From contig NZ_LMHZ01000031.1 in NCBI RefSeq assembly GCF_001428545.1, positions 52,796 through 95,504 of the forward strand: a stretch of DNA of 42,709 nt. The letters are read 5' to 3'. Position 1 is the first letter of the stretch. Each line of letters begins with the position of its first letter. The notes beneath the pieces are model-generated. The model worked only from the letters and a program-made list of their open reading frames with translations. It was not told the DNA's origin and did no database searches. Shown in pieces: positions 23,884-36,765 of this stretch. The position numbers and the translations under genes were made by a program. Source of the DNA: Noviherbaspirillum sp. Root189. GTDB taxonomy: Bacteria; Pseudomonadota; Gammaproteobacteria; Burkholderiales; Burkholderiaceae_D.

Positions 23884-26205
23884 TCAGTCATCCAGCACTC
23901 CAGACCTCTTGGTTGTCGATAGATCCACACCGTCCGGGAAGACGCGTTCACCCGGCGCTGTTACAAGTAATTTCTGCACACCGGCCAGACGTCTTTCAGC
24001 ATGGTCCATTTGGTTCTTCCAACCGAGGCTCGTTGTAGGCCGCGATTTTATCGTCTCGATCGCCGCTTTAAACTTTCCTTCGAGCCGCTTTAGGTTTTGC
24101 CGGTTTTCAGGCAAGTCGGTTGCCGAGAGATGGCGGCAATTCGCGAAGCACTCCAGGTGTTTGGGGCAGGGATCGACGGTAAACGAGTTCAGGCAATGCC
24201 CGTAAGGCGTAGCATGGAATCCGTCTGCTTCTACGCGCAAATATTCAAAAGCGGCCGAATCTCCCTCAGCCGACTGGATACGTCGGAACGCGTCCACAAT
24301 CGGGCCATTGGCTTTTCCGGCCTTGATCATCCTGGCGACCGTGCCAGATTTCTCACCCAGAATGATCTCAACTTCATGCGGAATCTCTATTTGATCGAGT
24401 TCTTCCGCTAGACTGCGGTGATCGTATTCGTAGCTCTGGGCGACACTGCGCCGGTTAAATCTTTTCGAGATTATCGTATCCGCAACGCCCAGCCGGAACA
24501 GTTCGGTGTTTTGCAGGTGTCGCAGTGAGTGCGAATTGATGCTTCTGACTCTATCTTCGTCTGTTGCACCGTAACGCTCAAACAATGACGGAATACGCGT
24601 CGCATCTCCTAAGGCATAACCAATAAACAATGGGTCAGGGCGGCTCACTGCCATGCAACGTGTAATGTCGCATATCCCTTCATTACGCTCCTCCACAAGT
24701 GAACGCTTCGGTTGCAAGAACAGAAACTCCCACGATTGGATAGCGCCATTTTCCGTCGATAACGGAGCCATGTCGGATACCTTTGTCGGTGTTGTCGCTC
24801 TGATGTGTTCCTCCAGTTCTCCGACATTGAGATAGGTGTCGCCCCAAGACATGCGACGATCCCTGGCAATGGGTGCACCACCGGCATTACGGAACCACAC
24901 GACCGTTTCACCATTTTGCATCTGCTTTTGCAAGCGGTTCCCAAACATATAAACCGCCATATCAAGCTTGCTCGATTCGCGTCCGTAATTCTTGTTCTGG
25001 TATTGATGCAGCTCCTGAAGCACACTCGGATCGAACGTCTTCCGATATCGTTCCAAGAACGAACTGCAGTCGATGTCCAGCCAGATCGGGTTTCCCGTCA
25101 CACGTGTATATAGTTCGATGAAGGGAACGACATCATTCTCCCGATACCACGGCAGAAGACGCCCGGTCTCGCATTGCAACTTGAGTGTGTCCCGTAACGG
25201 TTGAGTAAGCTGCGCAACGCGGTCAAGCGTCTCGGTCAGCAGCTGACGGAACATGTCTGGTACCGGTTGCGTGTTTTCCCGGAGGATGCGGCTATCCGAC
25301 TCTTCGGACTGTTGCTTCTCGGCGAAGTGCCGCAGCATCAATGACGTCGAGATGCCGCCAATCTCGCCGGCCGGCTGCCCTTTGGAATCCACATAGACTC
25401 GCTCGCGTTTCCAGTCGACCGGCAGCAGGGCGGCTTCTCCAATACGGAAGCCGGATATGACCATGGCACGAATCGCTGCAAACCGCAATTCGTCCATGAA
25501 CGTGCGCGGCTTTTCGGTCATGACGATGCGGACCAATTCCCAGAACGCACGACGCTCCGGCAGTCGCTCGGCCCGCTTGCGTTCCTCCAGATTGGCACGC
25601 AGCTCGTCTTCCGACATGGTGTGCTTCGATTTCGACCTCCTGACCGGTAAGCGGGTTACGTCAAGCGTGGGATACATCTGACCAGCGTCACAGACATGAT
25701 GCGCATCGAACACCACTTTCACGATGGCGACTACTAGGTCGCCCAGTTTTCCAGATGCCTGAATCGCCTTGCCTACTTGAATTGCCGTGTGCAGATCATC
25801 CAAGTTGAGTTGCCATGGTTCCTTGCCGACGCATGTGGCGATGACCCGTAAGGGCCGGACAATATGCTTGTACACGTGTGCTGTGGTGTTCCGCTTGAAC
25901 AGCAATTGCTCGGCGACGGCTGCCTTAATTATGTCTTGCCAACCAGCAGAGAGCGGTTTGCTGTGCAATGGCTCCAGACCATTCGAGGCGCGCTCCATGT
26001 TTAGTATGGCCAAGGCCTTACTATCGGCTCCGAGATCGCGCAGGTAGTAGGTGGGGGGAGGAACGTCGGCTACACAGGCAGTTAGATTCCAACCCACTCC
26101 GTCTTGTGCGATTCCCTTGTCGTCCAAAGGAATGTCCCAACGAAGTCCTTTTCCCTCGGCCAGTGTTTGGCCAAGCTCGATGAAGGCTCGGTAATTTCGA
26201 TTCAT
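23884..26205 (-). CDS. Large tyrosine recombinase, third of a trio
   Basis: A 773-aa protein. Candidate catalytic residues are R254 (SGFRIGEAALLP), H559 and R562 (NSHSLRHLQN) and Y592 or Y594 (AQSYEYDH). The 300-residue gap between the first Arg and the HxxR box is very long for the family and contains a large insert (about 290-540). A Cys/His cluster near 660-690 (YGHCLNSFTVDPCPKHLECF, then NCRH) may bind zinc, similar to the second protein of the trio. The start ATG overlaps the stop of the preceding gene (ATGA). The role is DNA strand exchange with its two partners. Confidence 0.75.
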   Translation of the reverse strand: MNRNYRAFIELGQTLAEGKGLRWDIPLDDKGIAQDGVGWNLTACVADVPPPTYYLRDLGADSKALAILNMERASNGLEPLHSKPLSAGWQDIIKAAVAEQLLFKRNTTAHVYKHIVRPLRVIATCVGKEPWQLNLDDLHTAIQVGKAIQASGKLGDLVVAIVKVVFDAHHVCDAGQMYPTLDVTRLPVRRSKSKHTMSEDELRANLEERKRAERLPERRAFWELVRIVMTEKPRTFMDELRFAAIRAMVISGFRIGEAALLPVDWKRERVYVDSKGQPAGEIGGISTSLMLRHFAEKQQSEESDSRILRENTQPVPDMFRQLLTETLDRVAQLTQPLRDTLKLQCETGRLLPWYRENDVVPFIELYTRVTGNPIWLDIDCSSFLERYRKTFDPSVLQELHQYQNKNYGRESSKLDMAVYMFGNRLQKQMQNGETVVWFRNAGGAPIARDRRMSWGDTYLNVGELEEHIRATTPTKVSDMAPLSTENGAIQSWEFLFLQPKRSLVEERNEGICDITRCMAVSRPDPLFIGYALGDATRIPSLFERYGATDEDRVRSINSHSLRHLQNTELFRLGVADTIISKRFNRRSVAQSYEYDHRSLAEELDQIEIPHEVEIILGEKSGTVARMIKAGKANGPIVDAFRRIQSAEGDSAAFEYLRVEADGFHATPYGHCLNSFTVDPCPKHLECFANCRHLSATDLPENRQNLKRLEGKFKAAIETIKSRPTTSLGWKNQMDHAERRLAGVQKLLVTAPGERVFPDGVDLSTTKRSGVLDD

Positions 26206-27743
26206 GCCTCTCTTTCCTCAATCTCGGTGATGACGATCTGTATCTCTGCAATTGTCCTTTGCAACTGCAGGTAGGCCGGTGATCGAGTGTCACCACGGGA
26301 ACTTTGGTCGAAGAACAGCACTACGCCCCGCATGTCAGCCAGCACCTGTTCATGGAATGCTTTGTCGTGCACCGGCATGAACTTGCGACAGCCATAGCAG
26401 GAAGTTACTGGGTTATAAGGGCAGGCCGGCTGCCCGGATGTGCAGCCGCCGATACCGGCGATCGGAATTCCGTGAGGTACGGCCGCAATCTGTTGCTCGC
26501 CTTTCAGCTCTGCCAATTCCTCCGGAGAGATGAAACGATCGTGGGCTATTTTCGCGACGCGCTGGTACACGGCCGAGGCACCGAGAGCGCGGTTAATGCG
26601 CTCCGCATGCGATGCCGACGTGGCGTAATACACGAGCCCCGTGCTTGTATGCGCATGACCAAGGAATTCCGCCAGTTCTTCGTGACTTGCGCCGGCATCA
26701 ACAAGGCGTTGTGCCGCAGTGTGGCGAAGATCTGTCGCCGTGCCGATGTCGTCCGAGTCCAGCAGCGCCCTGACGAGCGTGGAGATTCTATTGCTAACTT
26801 CCCAAGTCGATTCAACCTGGAAGAACTTCACTGAACCTGTAATACCCTCAGCATCCAAATGTGCTTTCCATTGAACGAAGAGCGGTGCCCATTCGGCCTT
26901 GACTCGCCGGGTCATAGGAATTCTTTTGCCACTGCCGCGTTGCTTGGCCATGTGGAAGGTCAGGTGCACCGCCGGGTAGTCAGAGATGTCATCGTTCCAA
27001 ATTCGGACATGGCGAACGTCGAGCATCGCAATTTGAATCGGTCGCATTGCAAACTGGTAAGAACAGAGCAGCATTCCGGCATCCGCCAATTCGCTTAGCG
27101 AGGGGCGCGTTGCAGCACTTTGCGCCAACCGTTCGACGACATCATCCAAATGCCGGACAATCCGCGCTTCTTCGTCGACAGACAGAAATACATCGCCCGA
27201 TCGGACACCAGCATATCTATCACTGACGGGTAAGGGCAGTGAGGTGTGGATGTAGGCCACGTAGTCGCTGGCCCAACCATTCAATCGATACGCACATAAA
27301 AGTTGCAACAGGTATTTGGCAGCCATATACGCGCTAGTCGGCAGGGCCCGTACGCGCAACGCTTTCCAGACCGAGCCAATCCGTGTGGGGCCGGCGCTTA
27401 CGAGCGCCGTAACCTCTGCCTGCGTTAAGTGCTGTGCGGAGGCTAGGTACGCCGCTACAGTCCCGACGCTCAAGTCCTCGGCAACGATGAGGGCAAAGAC
27501 ATGTTTGAAGATGACGTTCCTCTCGGGGCCAAGGCGCGCAAAGTCCAGTCGATTTCGACGTCCACCGTACCGCAGCTCGAAAATCGCTTGGCCTTCGGGA
27601 TTTCTGATCGATCTGATTGCATCATCAAACTCATCGTAGTAACGGAGCACCGAGGGCAGCTTGGGCAACGACGCGCAGAGGTGGGCGAGCACATCATTGT
27701 CGTCACCGCCAGCATGGAACCCTAGACGCTGTGACTTTTCCAT
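26202..27743 (-). CDS. Tyrosine recombinase, second of a trio
   Basis: A 513-aa recombinase. R234 (FAMRPIQIAML), R340 in TDLRHTAAQR, H363 in FLGHAHTS and Y372 or Y373 give the catalytic set, with Thr in place of the first His of the HxxR box. After the catalytic domain a Cys-rich segment (GGCTSGQPACPYNPVTSCYG, CRK) suggests a zinc-binding tail like that of TnpB of Tn554. The start codon directly follows the stop of the first recombinase. A strictly coupled gene order is typical of recombinase trios. Confidence 0.8.
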   Translation of the reverse strand: MEKSQRLGFHAGGDDNDVLAHLCASLPKLPSVLRYYDEFDDAIRSIRNPEGQAIFELRYGGRRNRLDFARLGPERNVIFKHVFALIVAEDLSVGTVAAYLASAQHLTQAEVTALVSAGPTRIGSVWKALRVRALPTSAYMAAKYLLQLLCAYRLNGWASDYVAYIHTSLPLPVSDRYAGVRSGDVFLSVDEEARIVRHLDDVVERLAQSAATRPSLSELADAGMLLCSYQFAMRPIQIAMLDVRHVRIWNDDISDYPAVHLTFHMAKQRGSGKRIPMTRRVKAEWAPLFVQWKAHLDAEGITGSVKFFQVESTWEVSNRISTLVRALLDSDDIGTATDLRHTAAQRLVDAGASHEELAEFLGHAHTSTGLVYYATSASHAERINRALGASAVYQRVAKIAHDRFISPEELAELKGEQQIAAVPHGIPIAGIGGCTSGQPACPYNPVTSCYGCRKFMPVHDKAFHEQVLADMRGVVLFFDQSSRGDTRSPAYLQLQRTIAEIQIVITEIEEREA

Positions 27744-28964
27744 TTAGCGTCCCTTCGGCAACGCACGTAGTAATGCCGCGCGATCATCAAACGCGTCGTT
27801 CCATACGGTAGCGAGACGATCTTCAAACACGGCACGTGCATAACGCGATGGCATCGCTGATGTCTTTGACCAGCCGAAGAATGTACGCAGCTTTTGAAGC
27901 GATTCCTCCAGCGAGTCGCCTTGCTGCAGCAGTTGATGCAGCCGCATTACGGCACTGGTATGGCGCAAGTCATGTGGCGTAACGGACCGTTTTCCAGCGC
28001 GATCGCTAAGTTGTTTCAGTACATCTGCCGGCAGTCGCTGCGAGACCTTCGTAAACGCCTTCGTCAGCGCTTCCGTTGATAGCGGCATATTTGCCTGCGA
28101 ATTCAGAAGAAACGAGTGTTGCGGTTGGCCACGGAAGTTTTGGGCGTAGCTATCAATGGTGTGTGCCGTCGCCTCGCTAACAGGAACCTGTCGGATGGAA
28201 GCGGCTGTCTTAATCCCAGGCTTCGAATATCGTGGGTCGCTCCCGGTATCCTCATACGGGTTTTCCTGCACATTAATCCAATATCGTATCCTGCCTTGTT
28301 TTGGATCGAATGCGCTCTTGATACAGTCCACCGGCAATAGGAGTACCTCGCCGCGCCGCAGGCCCTGATGCAACATCAAGATAAAGGATACAAACACTCG
28401 CCAACGTGTCCGGCTTCGCGGAAACGGGTTCAGCGACGATTCCGGATCCAGCAACTCATACAGGGTCTCTACAGTGGTCGCCGGTAGTGATCGGATTGTC
28501 TCAATGGGCTTGGCCTTGTGTACATGAAGCTGTCGATAGAGCAGCGAGAGAGGTTGCAGCCGTTCCTCGATGCTGCGTATCAAATGGCCTGCCTGGCTCT
28601 TTGAAACCCATGTCAAGACCGAGGAAACGAATCCCAATCCGGTCTGCCAGCGCTTTTCGTCGCCCTCGGTGGTTCGTGGCTGGTTTCGGATCGATACGAA
28701 CCAGGATTCCAGGATGGTGGCCAGCACGTCGTCGTTCAGAGTTCCCAACGCATCATCCAGCGCAGCCCATCCGAGCAACAGATCAGCGTGCTGGTAGAGA
28801 TGTTCAATGTGTCGAAGCTTTTTAAGATGGGTGGAATCGGCCAGATGGGCAGCTGACATCGCCGACCAGACAGATGCCCAGTAACGTGGCAATCCGTATT
28901 CGTCGACAAGAGCTGGCCCGCGAAGATTGCGTGGTACCGAGTTGTCGAAGAGTTGGATAACCAT
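27744..28964 (-). CDS. Tyrosine recombinase, first of a trio
   Basis: A 406-aa site-specific recombinase. Catalytic residues are R203 or R204 (QGLRRGEVLLLP), H331 and R334 (HDLRHTSAV), W365 (FFGWSKTS) in place of the second His, and Y375 (SRYARAVFED). The N-terminal 190 residues would form the DNA-clamp domain. The start at ATG 28964 is preferred over TTG 28988; neither has a clear ribosome site. It is the promoter-proximal gene of a four-gene operon. Confidence 0.85.
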   Translation of the reverse strand: MVIQLFDNSVPRNLRGPALVDEYGLPRYWASVWSAMSAAHLADSTHLKKLRHIEHLYQHADLLLGWAALDDALGTLNDDVLATILESWFVSIRNQPRTTEGDEKRWQTGLGFVSSVLTWVSKSQAGHLIRSIEERLQPLSLLYRQLHVHKAKPIETIRSLPATTVETLYELLDPESSLNPFPRSRTRWRVFVSFILMLHQGLRRGEVLLLPVDCIKSAFDPKQGRIRYWINVQENPYEDTGSDPRYSKPGIKTAASIRQVPVSEATAHTIDSYAQNFRGQPQHSFLLNSQANMPLSTEALTKAFTKVSQRLPADVLKQLSDRAGKRSVTPHDLRHTSAVMRLHQLLQQGDSLEESLQKLRTFFGWSKTSAMPSRYARAVFEDRLATVWNDAFDDRAALLRALPKGR

Positions 28965-29191
28965 TTTCGCACGTAGGAAAACGAGCAACGCATAAAAAAT
29001 ACCATTTATACAATTAAAGTTGCAATAGTTTTAAAAATTCACCCTCTAGAACGCAACACTTAATAAGGTGCCAGTCCGGACCATAACTTTATTTATGTTA
29101 AATAGATCGCACACTTTTTAATAGCGTGTCACTTTCCTTGCTGCTAGTTTTATTCACCGGTGAATAAAATCATTCCATAACAAATCTACTT
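28965..29191. promoter_or_regulatory. A/T-rich leader of the recombinase operon with a 22-bp perfect palindrome
   Basis: The region upstream of the trio is A/T rich. At 29148-29169 there is a 22-bp perfect palindrome centred on ACCGGT with arms beginning TTTTATTC. It has no unpaired loop beyond the centre and is better explained as a dimer-binding site than as a terminator. It lies about 185 bp before the first recombinase start and close to the end of the divergently placed small gene. A weak match to the seven-copy motif (CTACTTTTAGCT) is at about 29186-29197. Confidence 0.4.
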
Positions 29192-32258: not shown

Positions 32259-32460
32259 CTACGCCGCCTGTTGCAACGCGGGCAGGTTGGCGAAGTAAAA
32301 CGCATTCGGCGTGTGGCCGTCAAGCGCGCTGTGCGGCCGCCGGCTGTTGTAGAACTCCAGATAGCGCCCGATGCCACTGCGTGCCGCGCTCATCGTCTCG
32401 TAGGCGCGCAGGTACACTTCCTCGTACTTGATCGACTTCCATAGCCGCTCCACGAACACG
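32259..32460 (-). pseudogene. IS3 orfB, C-terminal part
   Basis: Minus-strand codons NVFVERLWKSIKYEEVYLRA through NSRRPHSALDGHTPNAFYF complete the DDE transposase, including the Glu of VERLW. The part is separated from the N-terminal portion at 35832-36457 by the 3.37-kb insert. Joining both sides at the shared TTG restores an uninterrupted frame of 276 aa through GCWRD-NVFVERLW. So the interruption is clean, with no loss of bases. Confidence 0.88.
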
Positions 32461-32461
32461 T

Positions 32462-32755
32462 TGGAACAAGCAGTCAACTGCGCCTGTTAAGCCCAATCAA
32501 ATCCGGCGTTTCCGAATAACACATCCCTATCACCCCCTCTTCACACAGGAATTCGAGCTAGTTCTTCACGCGCAAAACTGGCATGAAGACCGGGCTTGGT
32601 TTCACGACGCCACAGGTCGTCTGCGCTCCCTCCCAGCCATATGGACTAGCCTGGTGGCCGAGGATCCGTTCAATATGGTGTCTGCCGGACGCGCCGCATT
32701 TCGCGTCGAGGAGTTGCTTGAACTGGTGTGTTTGCTTCGTGAAAGTAAGTCATGA
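32462..32755 (+). CDS. DUF5372-like protein, body without start codon (left end of the element)
   Basis: The frame reads WNKQSTAPVKPNQIRRFRIT, then HPYHPLFTQEFELV, NWHEDRAWFHDATGRLRSLP, WTSLVAEDPF and AGRAAFRVEELLELV to TGA at 32753-32755. This matches the DUF5372-like proteins that I recall next to such recombinases. No ATG, GTG or TTG lies in frame before the conserved part; the frame runs through the left junction into IS3. The missing start, ribosome site and first five codons are found in the same register at 35815-35829. In the integrated copy this gene may be silent or use a poor start such as ATA. Confidence 0.75.
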   Translation, partial: WNKQSTAPVKPNQIRRFRITHPYHPLFTQEFELVLHAQNWHEDRAWFHDATGRLRSLPAIWTSLVAEDPFNMVSAGRAAFRVEELLELVCLLRESKS

Positions 32756-32965
32756 TTCGGTTTTTCGGGTGCAAACTTGATTATGCCGTAAGTGTTAATG
32801 CAATGATGTCCATGGCGCCAAATTGTCTAGGAGCTCCTCGGTCAGTGACGTCGACCGTTTGCCACGTAAAGTCAGATAGATCTTTACACGCGGAGCTTGA
32901 CATCGGTCCATGCAGGTACATAATTAACATTACACGTACTTGCTTTATCTTCTCTGGAGAAGCGC

Positions 32966-33427
32966 ATGGCTGCAGACCGAGGCAAAGAACAGAAACGACG
33001 TGGATTGAAGCAACAATCAACCCTCAATCCTCATCCCGATGCTGTTACCCATGCGCTGTTCCAAGGCAACGATTTCTTCGATCCTCACGACCTGTTGCAG
33101 GTGAAGTACGAAATGCTACGTTTGGTCAGCGTCGAGAAGCGGCCGGTCAGCGAAGCCGCCAAGGCATTTGGTTTCTCCCGACCGTCGTTCTATCAAGCGC
33201 AAGCGGCCTTTGCACAAGGCGGGTTGGCCGGTCTGATTCCGCAGAAGCCTGGGCCTCGCGGCGGCCACAAATTAACGTCAGCCGTTATGGAATTCCTCGT
33301 TCAGGCACGTGTAGCCGAGCCCTCTCTACGCTTCGAACGATTAGCGAGTCTGGTACAAAAGACCTTCGGCGTACAGGTACACCCACGCAGCATCGAACGG
33401 CAGTTCTTACGCAAAAAAAAACCGTAA
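32966..33427 (+). CDS. Helix-turn-helix protein of the serine-recombinase element
   Basis: A 153-aa protein starting at ATG 32966 after GGAGA. It has a basic N-terminus, PHDLLQVKYEMLRLVSVEKR and an HTH of transposase type (VSEAAKAFGFSRPSFYQAQA), then GLAGLIPQKPGPRGGHKL and a second small helical domain (LASLVQKTFGVQVHPRSIER). The fold resembles the DNA-binding heads of IS481/IS630 transposases. The frame ends at TAA right after an A9 tract. A -1 shift there would fuse it to the next frame, giving about 255 aa. It is presumably an accessory DNA-binding factor for the recombinase. Confidence 0.75.
   Translation: MAADRGKEQKRRGLKQQSTLNPHPDAVTHALFQGNDFFDPHDLLQVKYEMLRLVSVEKRPVSEAAKAFGFSRPSFYQAQAAFAQGGLAGLIPQKPGPRGGHKLTSAVMEFLVQARVAEPSLRFERLASLVQKTFGVQVHPRSIERQFLRKKKP
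33413..33421 (+). other. A9 tract, candidate -1 frameshift site
   Basis: Nine consecutive A lie at the end of the HTH frame, two codons before its TAA. The downstream frame (-1) is open to 33735. Runs of A are established sites of ribosomal or polymerase slippage in insertion sequences. A homopolymer length error or mutation is the alternative. Confidence 0.5.
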
Positions 33428-33735
33428 TAAATTCTCCCCTGTCATTGCCTGGCAGCGCATCTCGCAACGATGCATTGATCTCGCGTTACGAAGACTTGCG
33501 TCGCCAGGTCCTTGAACGCTCACGCTGCACATCCCGCGCTCAGGGGCGTGCGGTCTTGATACGTAGCGGGATGAGGATCTGGATGCAAACCTGGACTCAA
33601 TGCCCTGTTGAGTTTCCAGCGCCGCCGCGAGCGCCTGTGGGTGATGAAGAAATGCTTCCTTCAGGAATGCGGCAAGATATAACGATGATCTTGGCAGGCA
33701 TGCTCCTCTATGGTCATCAGGAGTTGAGAGTATGA
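33424..33735 (+). CDS. C-terminal frame, probable extension of the HTH protein or coupled small gene
   Basis: This frame has no clear start (a TTG at 33445 is possible). It reads ISRYEDLRRQVLERSRCTSR, AQGRAVLIRSGMRIWMQTW and ends with ITMILAGMLLYGHQELRV, overlapping the recombinase start by four bases. From memory, related elements have a short protein with YE-LR, RxQG and WM-W features directly before the recombinase. Either it is made by frameshifting from the HTH gene, or separately by coupling. Function unknown. Confidence 0.55.
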   Translation, partial: VINSPLSLPGSASRNDALISRYEDLRRQVLERSRCTSRAQGRAVLIRSGMRIWMQTWTQCPVEFPAPPRAPVGDEEMLPSGMRQDITMILAGMLLYGHQELRV

Positions 33736-35813
33736 ACAGCGACCCACATCAAAAGGTCCAGATCGGCCACCTTCAGCGTGACGCCTATCTCTATGTGCGC
33801 CAGTCGACGTTGAGACAAGTGTTTGAGAATACGGAAAGCACCAAGCGTCAATACGCGCTGCGCCAGCGGGCTATTGCCTTGGGATGGCCTGAGGACAGAA
33901 TCATTGTGATCGACAATGACCTTGGACAATCAGGCGCTTCATCAGCGGACCGTGAAGGCTTCCAGCGCCTTGTAGCCGAGGTCGGTGTTGGGCATGCCGG
34001 GATCGTGCTCGGGCTGGAGGTATCACGTCTAGCGCGCAATTCCACAGACTGGCATCGGCTTCTTGAGATCTGCGCGATTACAGATACGCTCATCCTTGAT
34101 GAAGATGGCGTTTATGATCCGGCGCACTTCAATGATCGGCTCTTGCTGGGACTGAAGGGGACGATGAGCGAGGCAGAATTGCATGTGCTGAGGGCACGAT
34201 TGCAGGGGGGAATCCTGAGCAAGGCCAGGCGCGGCGAGTTGGAAATGCGCCCGCCCGTCGGGCTCATCTACAATGCCGAGGGCGCCATCACCCTCGACCC
34301 TGATCAACAGGTGCAGCACTGTCTACGTTGGCTGTTCACCACGTTCCGGCGTACCGGATCAGCGATGGCCACGGCGAGAATTGCCCGTCAAGAAGGATTG
34401 GCATTCCCGCGCCGGTGCGGCAAGGGAGTTCACAAAGGCGAATTGCTATGGACCGGTCTCGATCACAGCCAGGTACTACGCATCTTGCACAACCCAAGAT
34501 ATGCCGGCGCATTCGTCTATGGCCGCACCCATATGCGCAAAACAGTTGATGGGTCAAGCCATATGCAGCGCCTGCCGCAAGATCAATGGGATACGCTGAT
34601 TCCGAATGCACACGCTGGATATATCACCTGGGAAGAGTATGAATGGAACCAGAGACGCCTACATGAAAGTGCACAGGCGATCGGTTCCGATCGGCGCCGC
34701 GGCCCTCCACGCGAAGGCCCCGCGCTACTGCAGGGATTGGTAGTCTGTGGGCGCTGCGGCGGGCGTATGACGGTTCGCTACCATAGTCGCAACAAACAAT
34801 TATGTCCTGAATATGTCTGTCAACGCGAAGGCATTGAGCACGCTGAACCCGTCTGCCAACGTGTCTGCGGCGTTGGCATCGACCAAGCCATCGGTGACCT
34901 ACTCATTGAAGCGGTCAACCCAGTGGCCCTTGAGGTGACACTGGCTGTGCAGCGCGAACTTCAGGCACGCATGGACGAAGCAGAGCGACTGCGTCACAAA
35001 CAAGTCGAGCGTGCTCAGTATGAAGCCGATTTGGCTCAGCGCCGTTATATGCGCGTTGATCCCGACAATCGACTGGTTGCCGATTCCCTTGAAGCGGACT
35101 GGAATCAAAGATTGCGCGTCCTGGCTGAGGCACATGAGGAATATGGGCGTCGCCACGAACAGGATAGGCGCATCCTTACGGACGAACAGCGTACGACCAT
35201 CCTGGCACTCGCCACAGACTTCCCGCGTCTGTGGCGTGACCCTCGTACGCCAGATCGCGAACGCAAGCGAATGATTCGACTCCTTCTAGAAGATGTGACC
35301 TTGAATCGGGATCATCAAATCACCTTGCAGATTCGTTTCAAGGGCGGTGCCCACAAGACGCTTAACCTGCCTCTGCCAATGTCATCCTGGCAAAAAATCG
35401 TTACACCTGCAGAAGTAGTCGCTCAAATCGATGAACTGCTTAACCACCATACGTACTTGCAAATTGCGACTATCCTTAATGAGCGAGGTATCGTCTCGGG
35501 CGCCGGCAAGCGCTTTAACTCTCATATGATCGCTCGTCTTCAACGTAGCTATGGGCTCAAGTCGCGCTACGATCGATTAAGGGAGACTGGGCTGTTAACG
35601 CTTCACGAAATGGCTGATGCGTTGCACCTCTCACCCACTCATGTAAAGATATGGAATCGCCATGGCCTGATTCGTGGACATGCTTACAGTGACAAGAACG
35701 AGTGTTTGTATGAACCGCCAGGTAACAATCCGCCACGGAAATCGCTGGGCGTGAAATTCTCCCGGCGGCTTGCCGACTCACGGGTCGTTACTGATCGCAC
35801 TGGAGAGGTGTAG
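33732..35813 (+). CDS. Large serine recombinase
   Basis: A 693-aa recombinase with three parts. An N-terminal resolvase-type catalytic domain has S25 in YVRQST, GQSGASSADREGF and LEVSRLARNS. A recombinase domain (about 190-330) contains VGLIYNAEG and ILHNPRYAGAFVYGR. A zinc ribbon begins LVVCGRCGGRMTV, followed by a coiled region (MDEAERLRHKQVERAQYEAD). The C-terminal third has an additional HTH-like stretch (LTLHEMADALHLSPTHVKIW). It should integrate and excise the element at a short core. The stop TAG is one base before the ATG of the split DUF5372-like gene. Confidence 0.92.
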   Translation: MNSDPHQKVQIGHLQRDAYLYVRQSTLRQVFENTESTKRQYALRQRAIALGWPEDRIIVIDNDLGQSGASSADREGFQRLVAEVGVGHAGIVLGLEVSRLARNSTDWHRLLEICAITDTLILDEDGVYDPAHFNDRLLLGLKGTMSEAELHVLRARLQGGILSKARRGELEMRPPVGLIYNAEGAITLDPDQQVQHCLRWLFTTFRRTGSAMATARIARQEGLAFPRRCGKGVHKGELLWTGLDHSQVLRILHNPRYAGAFVYGRTHMRKTVDGSSHMQRLPQDQWDTLIPNAHAGYITWEEYEWNQRRLHESAQAIGSDRRRGPPREGPALLQGLVVCGRCGGRMTVRYHSRNKQLCPEYVCQREGIEHAEPVCQRVCGVGIDQAIGDLLIEAVNPVALEVTLAVQRELQARMDEAERLRHKQVERAQYEADLAQRRYMRVDPDNRLVADSLEADWNQRLRVLAEAHEEYGRRHEQDRRILTDEQRTTILALATDFPRLWRDPRTPDRERKRMIRLLLEDVTLNRDHQITLQIRFKGGAHKTLNLPLPMSSWQKIVTPAEVVAQIDELLNHHTYLQIATILNERGIVSGAGKRFNSHMIARLQRSYGLKSRYDRLRETGLLTLHEMADALHLSPTHVKIWNRHGLIRGHAYSDKNECLYEPPGNNPPRKSLGVKFSRRLADSRVVTDRTGEV

Positions 35814-35814
35814 T

Positions 35815-35831
35815 ATGAAACAAAAGCCTTG
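35815..35831 (+). CDS. DUF5372-like protein, start codon and first five codons (right end of the element)
   Basis: GGAGAGG (35802-35808) lies 6 nt before ATG AAA CAA AAG CCT, after which the element ends in TTG. In place the frame runs into IS3 DNA (CRASSLCRPC, then stop). If the right end is joined to the left end at the shared TTG, the frame continues TGG AAC AAG and encodes MKQKP followed by WNKQS and the conserved DUF5372-like body, 102 aa in total. Confidence 0.7.
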
Positions 35832-36457
35832 TCGCGCCAGCAGCCTTTGCCGTCCATGCTGATGGCGATGTCGTGGTCCTTGAGCAGCTGCGTGAATTCG
35901 AGGCTGGTAAACTGACTGCCCTGATCGGTGTTGAAGATTTCCGGCGCGCCGTAGCGCCGGATCGCCTCCTGCACGGCCTCAATGCAGAAATCCGTCGTCA
36001 GCGTGTTCGACAGACGCCATGACAGCACGCGTCGGCTGGCCCAGTCCATCACCGCAAACAGGTACACGAAGCCACGCTTCATCGGGATGTACGTGATGTC
36101 AGCGGCAAACACCTGGTTGGGCCGACTGATCTCCAGATTGCGCAGCAGGTACGGATAGACCGGATGTGCGGGATGGCGGCGGCTGGTATTGGGCTTCTTG
36201 TATAGCGCCTCGATGCTCATCTTCTTCATCAGCGTGGCCACATGCTTGCGGCCGACCTGATGGCCTTCCCGCTTGAGCATGTCGCGCAGCATGCGGCTGC
36301 CGGCAATTGGATGCTCCAGATGCAGTTCATCCATGCGGCGCATCAGCGCCAGCTCGGCTTCACTGGCCTCCTGGGGACGGTAGTACGCCGTCGAACGCGC
36401 CAGCGACAGAATCTGACATTGCTGCGTCACCGGCAGAGCGTGGGTGCGATCGATCAT
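35832..36457 (-). pseudogene. IS3 orfB, N-terminal part
   Basis: Starts MIDRTHALPVTQQCQILSLA at 36457, overlapping the orfA stop. The HTH_21-like region is followed by the integrase core: [10 protein letters not shown] (first Asp), IFNTDQGSQFTS (second Asp) and ISMDGKGCWRD, where the insert cuts. The remaining residues before the natural stop are at 32259-32460. In place, the frame continues into the serine-recombinase element for some 45 foreign codons. Confidence 0.88.
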
Positions 36458-36765
36458 TTCCTTGCGCTCAGCAATCCCGCTTTGGTGAGCGCGCCGCTTA
36501 AAAAATCGATCTCCAATGCCTGCTGTCCGATCTTGGCGTGCAACTCCTTCAGATCCGGCAAGCTCTCTTTCTCGCCGGCCGCAGTGCCGCCGTCAAATAC
36601 GTCTGCCGCCCGCTCCAGCAACTGCCGCTTCCACTCGGTTACCTGGTTCGGATGGACTTCGTATTGCTGCGCTATCTCGGTCAATGTCTTGTCGCCGCGT
36701 AGCGCCGCCAATGCCACCTTGGCCTTGAAACTCCCTGAGTGATTCCGCCTCGTTCTCTTGGTCAT
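36454..36765 (-). CDS. IS3-family orfA transposase protein
   Basis: A 103-aa HTH_Tnp_1 protein: MTKRTRRNHSGSFKAKVALA, LRGDKTLTEIAQQYEVHPNQ and VTEWKRQLLERAADVF, with a leucine-zipper-like end. AGGAG lies 7 nt before ATG 36765. It overlaps orfB by four bases (ATGA). OrfA binds the terminal repeats and can be fused to OrfB by -1 frameshifting in this family. Confidence 0.88.
   Translation of the reverse strand: MTKRTRRNHSGSFKAKVALAALRGDKTLTEIAQQYEVHPNQVTEWKRQLLERAADVFDGGTAAGEKESLPDLKELHAKIGQQALEIDFLSGALTKAGLLSARK

Follow-up and report, generated by a model that had tools for sequence, protein, structure and literature searches.

This study focused on a gene that lies in two pieces, one at each end of a large serine recombinase element, in a stretch of 42,709 nt (the window) from contig NZ_LMHZ01000031.1 of Noviherbaspirillum sp. 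Root189. The locus raises the question of when such a gene, a member of the DUF5372 family, could be read, as its ribosome site and start codon are at the right end of the element and its body at the left. The best overall explanation is, with high probability, that it is the terminal gene of the element's operon, readable when the element forms a circle and beheaded when it integrates; the attachment site of the circle (attP) is inside this reading frame.

A gene divided between the ends of the element

At the right end, the recombinase gene stops with TAG at 35811-35813 and, after a single T, is followed by ATG AAA CAA AAG CCT (35815-35829), with GGAGAGG at 35802-35808 ahead of the ATG. At the left end, a frame of 97 codons (32462-32752, stop TGA at 32753-32755) matched PF17342, DUF5372, with an E-value of 3.1e-23 and 82 bits, the Pfam cut-off being 25. 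No ATG, GTG or TTG was present in this frame of the window from the junction up to the conserved HPYHP motif, and no in-frame start was found in the left flank of the window before an in-frame stop 33 nt upstream. With the ends joined at the core, 102 stop-free codons were obtained, which together with the PF17342 match upholds the claim of an earlier, sequence-only reading of this DNA that a DUF5372-like gene is split across the two ends and becomes whole when they are joined.

The boundary of the element could be examined against an empty site, as an uninterrupted homologous insertion sequence (IS) is present on contig C33 of the same genome. The flanks joined at TTG were identical to it at 229/294 positions, and the alignment was ungapped at the junction, with a single 3-base gap elsewhere; therefore, the boundary proposed by the sequence-only reading is correct, and insertion costs the target no sequence. 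The span of 3,371 bp proposed with it counted the core twice, and the element measures 3,368 bp. The short identical core (TTG) at both ends without loss of target, and the Resolvase, Recombinase and zinc-ribbon domains of the recombinase, are those of large serine recombinase elements, and crossover probably occurs within the TT of the core. In the IS607 family, a DNA-binding domain stands ahead of the catalytic domain; membership of that family was rejected, the Resolvase domain coming first in the protein (residues 18-169 of 693). No genes were seen in the 3.35-kb element beyond those for a helix-turn-helix (HTH) protein, ORF3, the recombinase, and DUF5372.

Recurrence of the split gene among relatives

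Relatives were gathered by a recombinase scan of one genome per species, and 80 of 143 were kept. According to database records they come from Burkholderiales, Acidobacteria, Planctomycetes, Chloroflexi, Bacteroidetes, Verrucomicrobia, Myxococcales, and Actinomycetes, many of them being metagenome bins, in which a stray contig is possible. A DUF5372 match was found in 71 of the 80, and the order and spacing of DUF5372, HTH, and recombinase recur. Ends were located from the recombinase-site arms (right GGTGCAGT-N14-TT, left TT-N14-ACTGCACC) and not from the reading frame, apart from three right ends set at the contig end (L025, L028, L059) and the left core of a second copy in the Root189 genome, placed by eye, where the arm was poor and the automatic search offered other TTs; the left cores of L120 and L124, of the sample described below, were also placed by eye. 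Both ends were placed in 57 relatives, the left only in 5, the right only in 16, and neither in 2. The 57, with the window, the second copy in its own genome, and two plasmid copies, make 61, which comprise 54 distinct joined genes (identical ones counted once); the 54 elements measure 3,248-3,506 bp, with a median of 3,356.

All 54 joined genes are open in frame from the start to DUF5372. Between the junction and the HPxHP motif, in-frame stops were found in 0/54, against 31/54 and 43/54 in the other two frames, a difference beyond chance, and the frame was kept where left pieces differ in length (L079, L080, L082). The arm is directly followed by ATG in 32 and by GTG in 19, and the remaining three have CAG then TTG (L048, L049) or CTG then ATG (L082). 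Relative to the recombinase stop, the start lies at -11 (25), -4 (13), +1 (6), +8 (7), +11 (7), or further away (6) among 64 distinct right ends, so that 38 starts overlap the stop (by 11 or 4 nt), 20 follow it by 1-11 nt, and 58/64 are no more than 11 nt from it. A start that overlaps or adjoins the recombinase stop provides what translational coupling would need, and a Shine-Dalgarno-like word accompanies it at 63/64 right ends, under a lenient test and with words that partly overlap the recombinase arm. The adjoining start and ribosome site, described by the sequence-only reading for the window, thus recur in most relatives, and a comparison of elements with the same recombinase finds the split arrangement across phyla. 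The split, the frame, the boundary, and the nearness to the recombinase stop are all supported by this comparison, and by a sample found from DUF5372, described below.

An alternative is that the ATG or GTG and the open frame are by-products of the recombinase binding site, and that translation of DUF5372 begins at a weak internal start, or at one in the target, whatever the state of the element. The attP is indeed a near-palindrome, GGTGCAGT-N14-TT-N14-ACTGCACC, with the start codon adjoining the arm, as this explanation would have it, but binding leaves unexplained the lack of in-frame stops beside their frequency in the other frames, the closeness of the start to the recombinase stop, and the frame kept across left pieces of differing length.

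The Pfam family was also taken as the starting point, and searched in 60, 61, and 60 genomes, from the relatives of the window and the families to which two known carriers of the element belong, so that the sample centers on genomes where the element had already been seen. Sixteen places exceeded the Pfam cut-off (four below it were left out of the count), and 9/16 had the two ends and gave an open gene on joining; L111, L114, and L125 are among the nine, as are L110, L115, L120, and L124, which are new with respect to the recombinase-derived set. The other 7/16 were without one usable end, owing to contig ends, inserted elements, or decay. A second subfamily (L119-L123) is without the usual HTH spacing, and the ends of L120 share GTC rather than TT; joining them at the GTC, by eye, also gave an open gene.

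The integrated state

In 41 of the 54 distinct copies, the flank reaches an in-frame stop. An in-frame start precedes that stop in 12/41 and no ATG, GTG or TTG does in 29/41, while 19/41 have no start either in the flank or in the element before HPxHP. In a Sinorhizobium fredii plasmid copy (L129:3960-4130), DUF5372 gains an in-frame ATG from the target. Expression decided by the target DNA, as the sequence-only reading suggested, can accordingly happen, in view of the 12 flanks with a start and of this copy. Public annotation, in the four cases examined (L087, L088, L129, L130), places the DUF5372 start inside the element and misses the head at the other end.

Codon differences in the DUF5372 domain, counted over 16 pairs, numbered 134, 122, and 362 at positions 1, 2, and 3, and those in recombinase codons 11-200, for 15 of the same pairs (one was skipped), 228, 146, and 894. 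The excess at third positions of the domain therefore indicates a protein under selection, though most integrated copies are without a start, and translation from the circle would be its simplest source. That DUF5372 is made from the circle only is considered likely.

Several observations weigh against this reading. Some in-frame ATG, GTG or TTG precedes HPxHP in 18/54, so that a start of its own inside the left end, which the sequence-only reading had named as counter-evidence, is not the rule but may occur in some copies; in many of the 18 it is a GTG two codons ahead of HPxHP, inside the domain. L120 has an ATG one codon past the junction, where an internal start is possible, and in four relatives with DUF5372 (L030, L064, L069, L081) the left core was not found. 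Third-position excess is lacking in the head (differences of 4, 14, and 13) and in the first left codons (20, 22, and 16), and the DNA there may be held by recombinase binding; the third-position test is unable to distinguish binding from coding at the head codons. The ratio of synonymous to non-synonymous codon differences, 252:222 in the DUF5372 domain and 789:266 in the recombinase, also points to weaker constraint on the former. Finally, the joined junction was found in 0/79 and 0/3 plasmid records, in 0/369 genomes of the class, in 0/30 host genomes with a pattern that would catch 35/54 of the junctions, and in no viral contig, the pattern for class genomes and viral contigs being two bases stricter than that for host genomes. 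The internal starts, the flank starts such as that of L129, and the head without third-position excess would all suit a by-product of the binding site, which nevertheless is improbable in view of the frame and the position of the start.

Choice of target

A TTC or CTC, the antisense of a Glu codon, occurs exactly at -13 from the core in 51/60 left flanks (47/56 distinct ones); in an offset test with flanks of at least 40 nt, -13 scored 47/56 and the runner-up 11/56. There are 10 bp between the insertion and the Glu codon, and the targets are mostly transposase genes. Many left flanks, read antisense, open like the Glu region of DDE transposases (VFVERLWKSIKYEE, GRVERANQTLQ, AYAERFVRSIK), and this Glu is presumably the catalytic one. 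A match to the rve integrase core was obtained for 25 of the 41 right-flank frames of at least 80 aa scanned, out of 68 flanks. In the window, 32448-32463 covers the same target position in the left flank, and the target, which we take to be an IS3-like transposase, is cut just before its presumed catalytic Glu codon. Nine flanks have no Glu codon, and six of these look like another target type (L052, L055, L057, L066, L068, L074), the L052-type flank reading like a CPxCGG-containing protein that we assume may be IS91-like.

Four identical copies in Paraburkholderia nodosa have differing flanks, which suggests recent movement, whereas identical copies that share flanks, four in Polaromonas and two in genome ACC003, may have travelled with a host IS. 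From its choice of target, the family would appear to be a parasite of insertion sequences.

Operon structure and proposed mechanism

A TTGACA-16-CATAAT box lies downstream of the DUF5372 stop and ahead of the HTH gene. Across 50 elements, such boxes in this gap have a mean of 2.3 mismatches, compared with 4.0 in simple base shuffles, and 9/50 have a promoter-like box with 4 or 5. From the position of the box, the order in the circle is therefore promoter, HTH-ORF3, recombinase, DUF5372, which would place attP inside the last gene of a single operon, to be beheaded by integration. A run of at least seven A residues ends the HTH gene in 52 of the 56 loci examined, and the -1 frame is open to the recombinase start in 52/56, with the +1 frame open as well in 23. 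The run and the open -1 frame suggest that HTH and ORF3 are fused through slippage, and programmed slippage is probable; ORF3 gave no match to Pfam.

The mechanism envisaged is as follows. The element, of about 3.35 kb, would carry one operon of promoter, HTH, ORF3 (probably fused by slippage), recombinase, and DUF5372, with attP in the 5' part of its last gene, some five codons in. In the circle, translation would continue from the recombinase stop to the DUF5372 start that overlaps or adjoins it, and a 102-residue protein would result. When the element inserts into a transposase gene by way of its TT core, the right end would receive the ribosome site, the start, and five codons, while the headless body would stay at the left end on the far side of the promoter, so that the protein would normally no longer be made. 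As its most likely role, DUF5372 could act at the circle stage as a partner of the recombinase, for example by favoring attP x attB recombination or hindering its reversal, and integration would then switch it off; this role as an integration partner is put forward tentatively.

Two other roles would leave the split gene as described. DUF5372 might be a recombination directionality factor (RDF), made in the circle, driving excision of other copies and delaying integration. Many known RDFs are small proteins encoded beside their recombinase, as DUF5372 is, and the P. nodosa copies suggest recent movement, but an RDF is required while the element is integrated, and the DUF5372 gene is then headless; moreover, no sequence match to DUF5372 was found among solved structures; this role seems unlikely. 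A role in maintenance of the circle or in repression of the operon promoter is more doubtful still: no replication gene was seen among those of the element, no search for an origin having been made, and the fold match of the predicted DUF5372 model (pLDDT 80.9), a weak resemblance to SH3/KOW-like barrels, is within the common range.

Coordinates of the element and its parts (Table 1) are given for the window. Elsewhere in the window, 23884-28988 holds a row of three genes on the minus strand; Phage_integrase domains were found in two of them, and the third gave no match to Pfam. Together they presumably resemble a recombinase-in-trio set.

Table 1. Features of the element and its target in the window.
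Feature	Position	Strand	Remarks
Whole serine recombinase element, single TTG core counted	32464..35831	+	3,368 bp
Left core TTG (att)	32461..32463	.	Core seen at both ends
Right core TTG	35829..35831	.	Core seen at both ends
Left att half: TT - 14 nt - ACTGCGCC arm	32461..32484	.	
Right att half: GGTGTAGT arm - 14 nt - TT	35807..35830	.	
Headless DUF5372 body, 97 codons + stop	32462..32755	+	PF17342 match, E 3.1e-23
Likely promoter TTGACA-16-CATAAT of the HTH-ORF3-recombinase operon	32897..32924	+	
Helix-turn-helix protein, 153 aa	32966..33427	+	PF13518 and others
A9 run, likely slippage site (HTH fused to ORF3, -1 frame)	33413..33421	+	
ORF3, -1 frame, without assigned start of its own; stop overlaps recombinase start	33430..33735	+	
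Large serine recombinase, 693 aa	33732..35813	+	Resolvase, Recombinase, Zn_ribbon_recom
DUF5372 gene head: ribosome site GGAGAGG + ATG AAA CAA AAG CCT	35802..35829	+	
Target: first part of rve-type transposase frame	35831..36592	-	HTH_21 and rve matches

Relation to known systems

In IS911, IS30, and IS2, the circle junction assembles a promoter for the transposase. The present element is similar in that joining of the ends in the circle creates an expression signal, but there a promoter is assembled and here a reading frame with its ribosome site and start.

The nearest precedent is the integration-dependent switch of mycobacteriophage BPs and its relatives, in which attP lies inside the repressor gene 33 (PMC4557955). 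In both, attP is within a reading frame of the element and integration alters the gene product. In BPs, however, the repressor loses its C-terminus on integration and stays active in the shorter form, whereas here the ribosome site and start are removed and the gene should be switched off; and BPs concerns a phage repressor, not a 3.35-kb element of four genes. An active shortened product of the BPs type is opposed, for the 19/41 copies concerned, by the absence of a start in both the flank and the element ahead of HPxHP.

Large serine recombinases include multi-targeting enzymes, one of them with a TT core (PMC10083194). The Resolvase-Recombinase-zinc ribbon protein, TT core, and absence of target loss are shared with such elements, while the DUF5372, HTH, and ORF3 partners, the gene split by attP, and perhaps the concentration of targets on a transposase Glu codon distinguish the present family; DUF5372 is not mentioned in the main text of that report. 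None of the papers searched contained DUF5372, and nothing on this element was found among the matches listed, in a literature whose coverage left subscription journals mostly outside.

Taken as a whole, it is reasonably likely that these are widespread, minimal serine recombinase elements that parasitize insertion sequences at what we take to be the catalytic Glu codon of the transposase, and whose own attP serves as a switch of state, with a recombinase-coupled protein made only in the circle and beheaded by integration. If so, this would be a compact switch, kept across phyla, in which the arrangement of the DNA alone, circular or integrated, decides whether a protein is produced. It would explain the internal DUF5372 starts in annotation, and a function for DUF5372 would become testable, with a new integration-control factor for serine recombinases suggested. 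The choice of a transposase codon that is conserved widely would also show a route by which an element can reach abundant, dispensable targets in many genomes.

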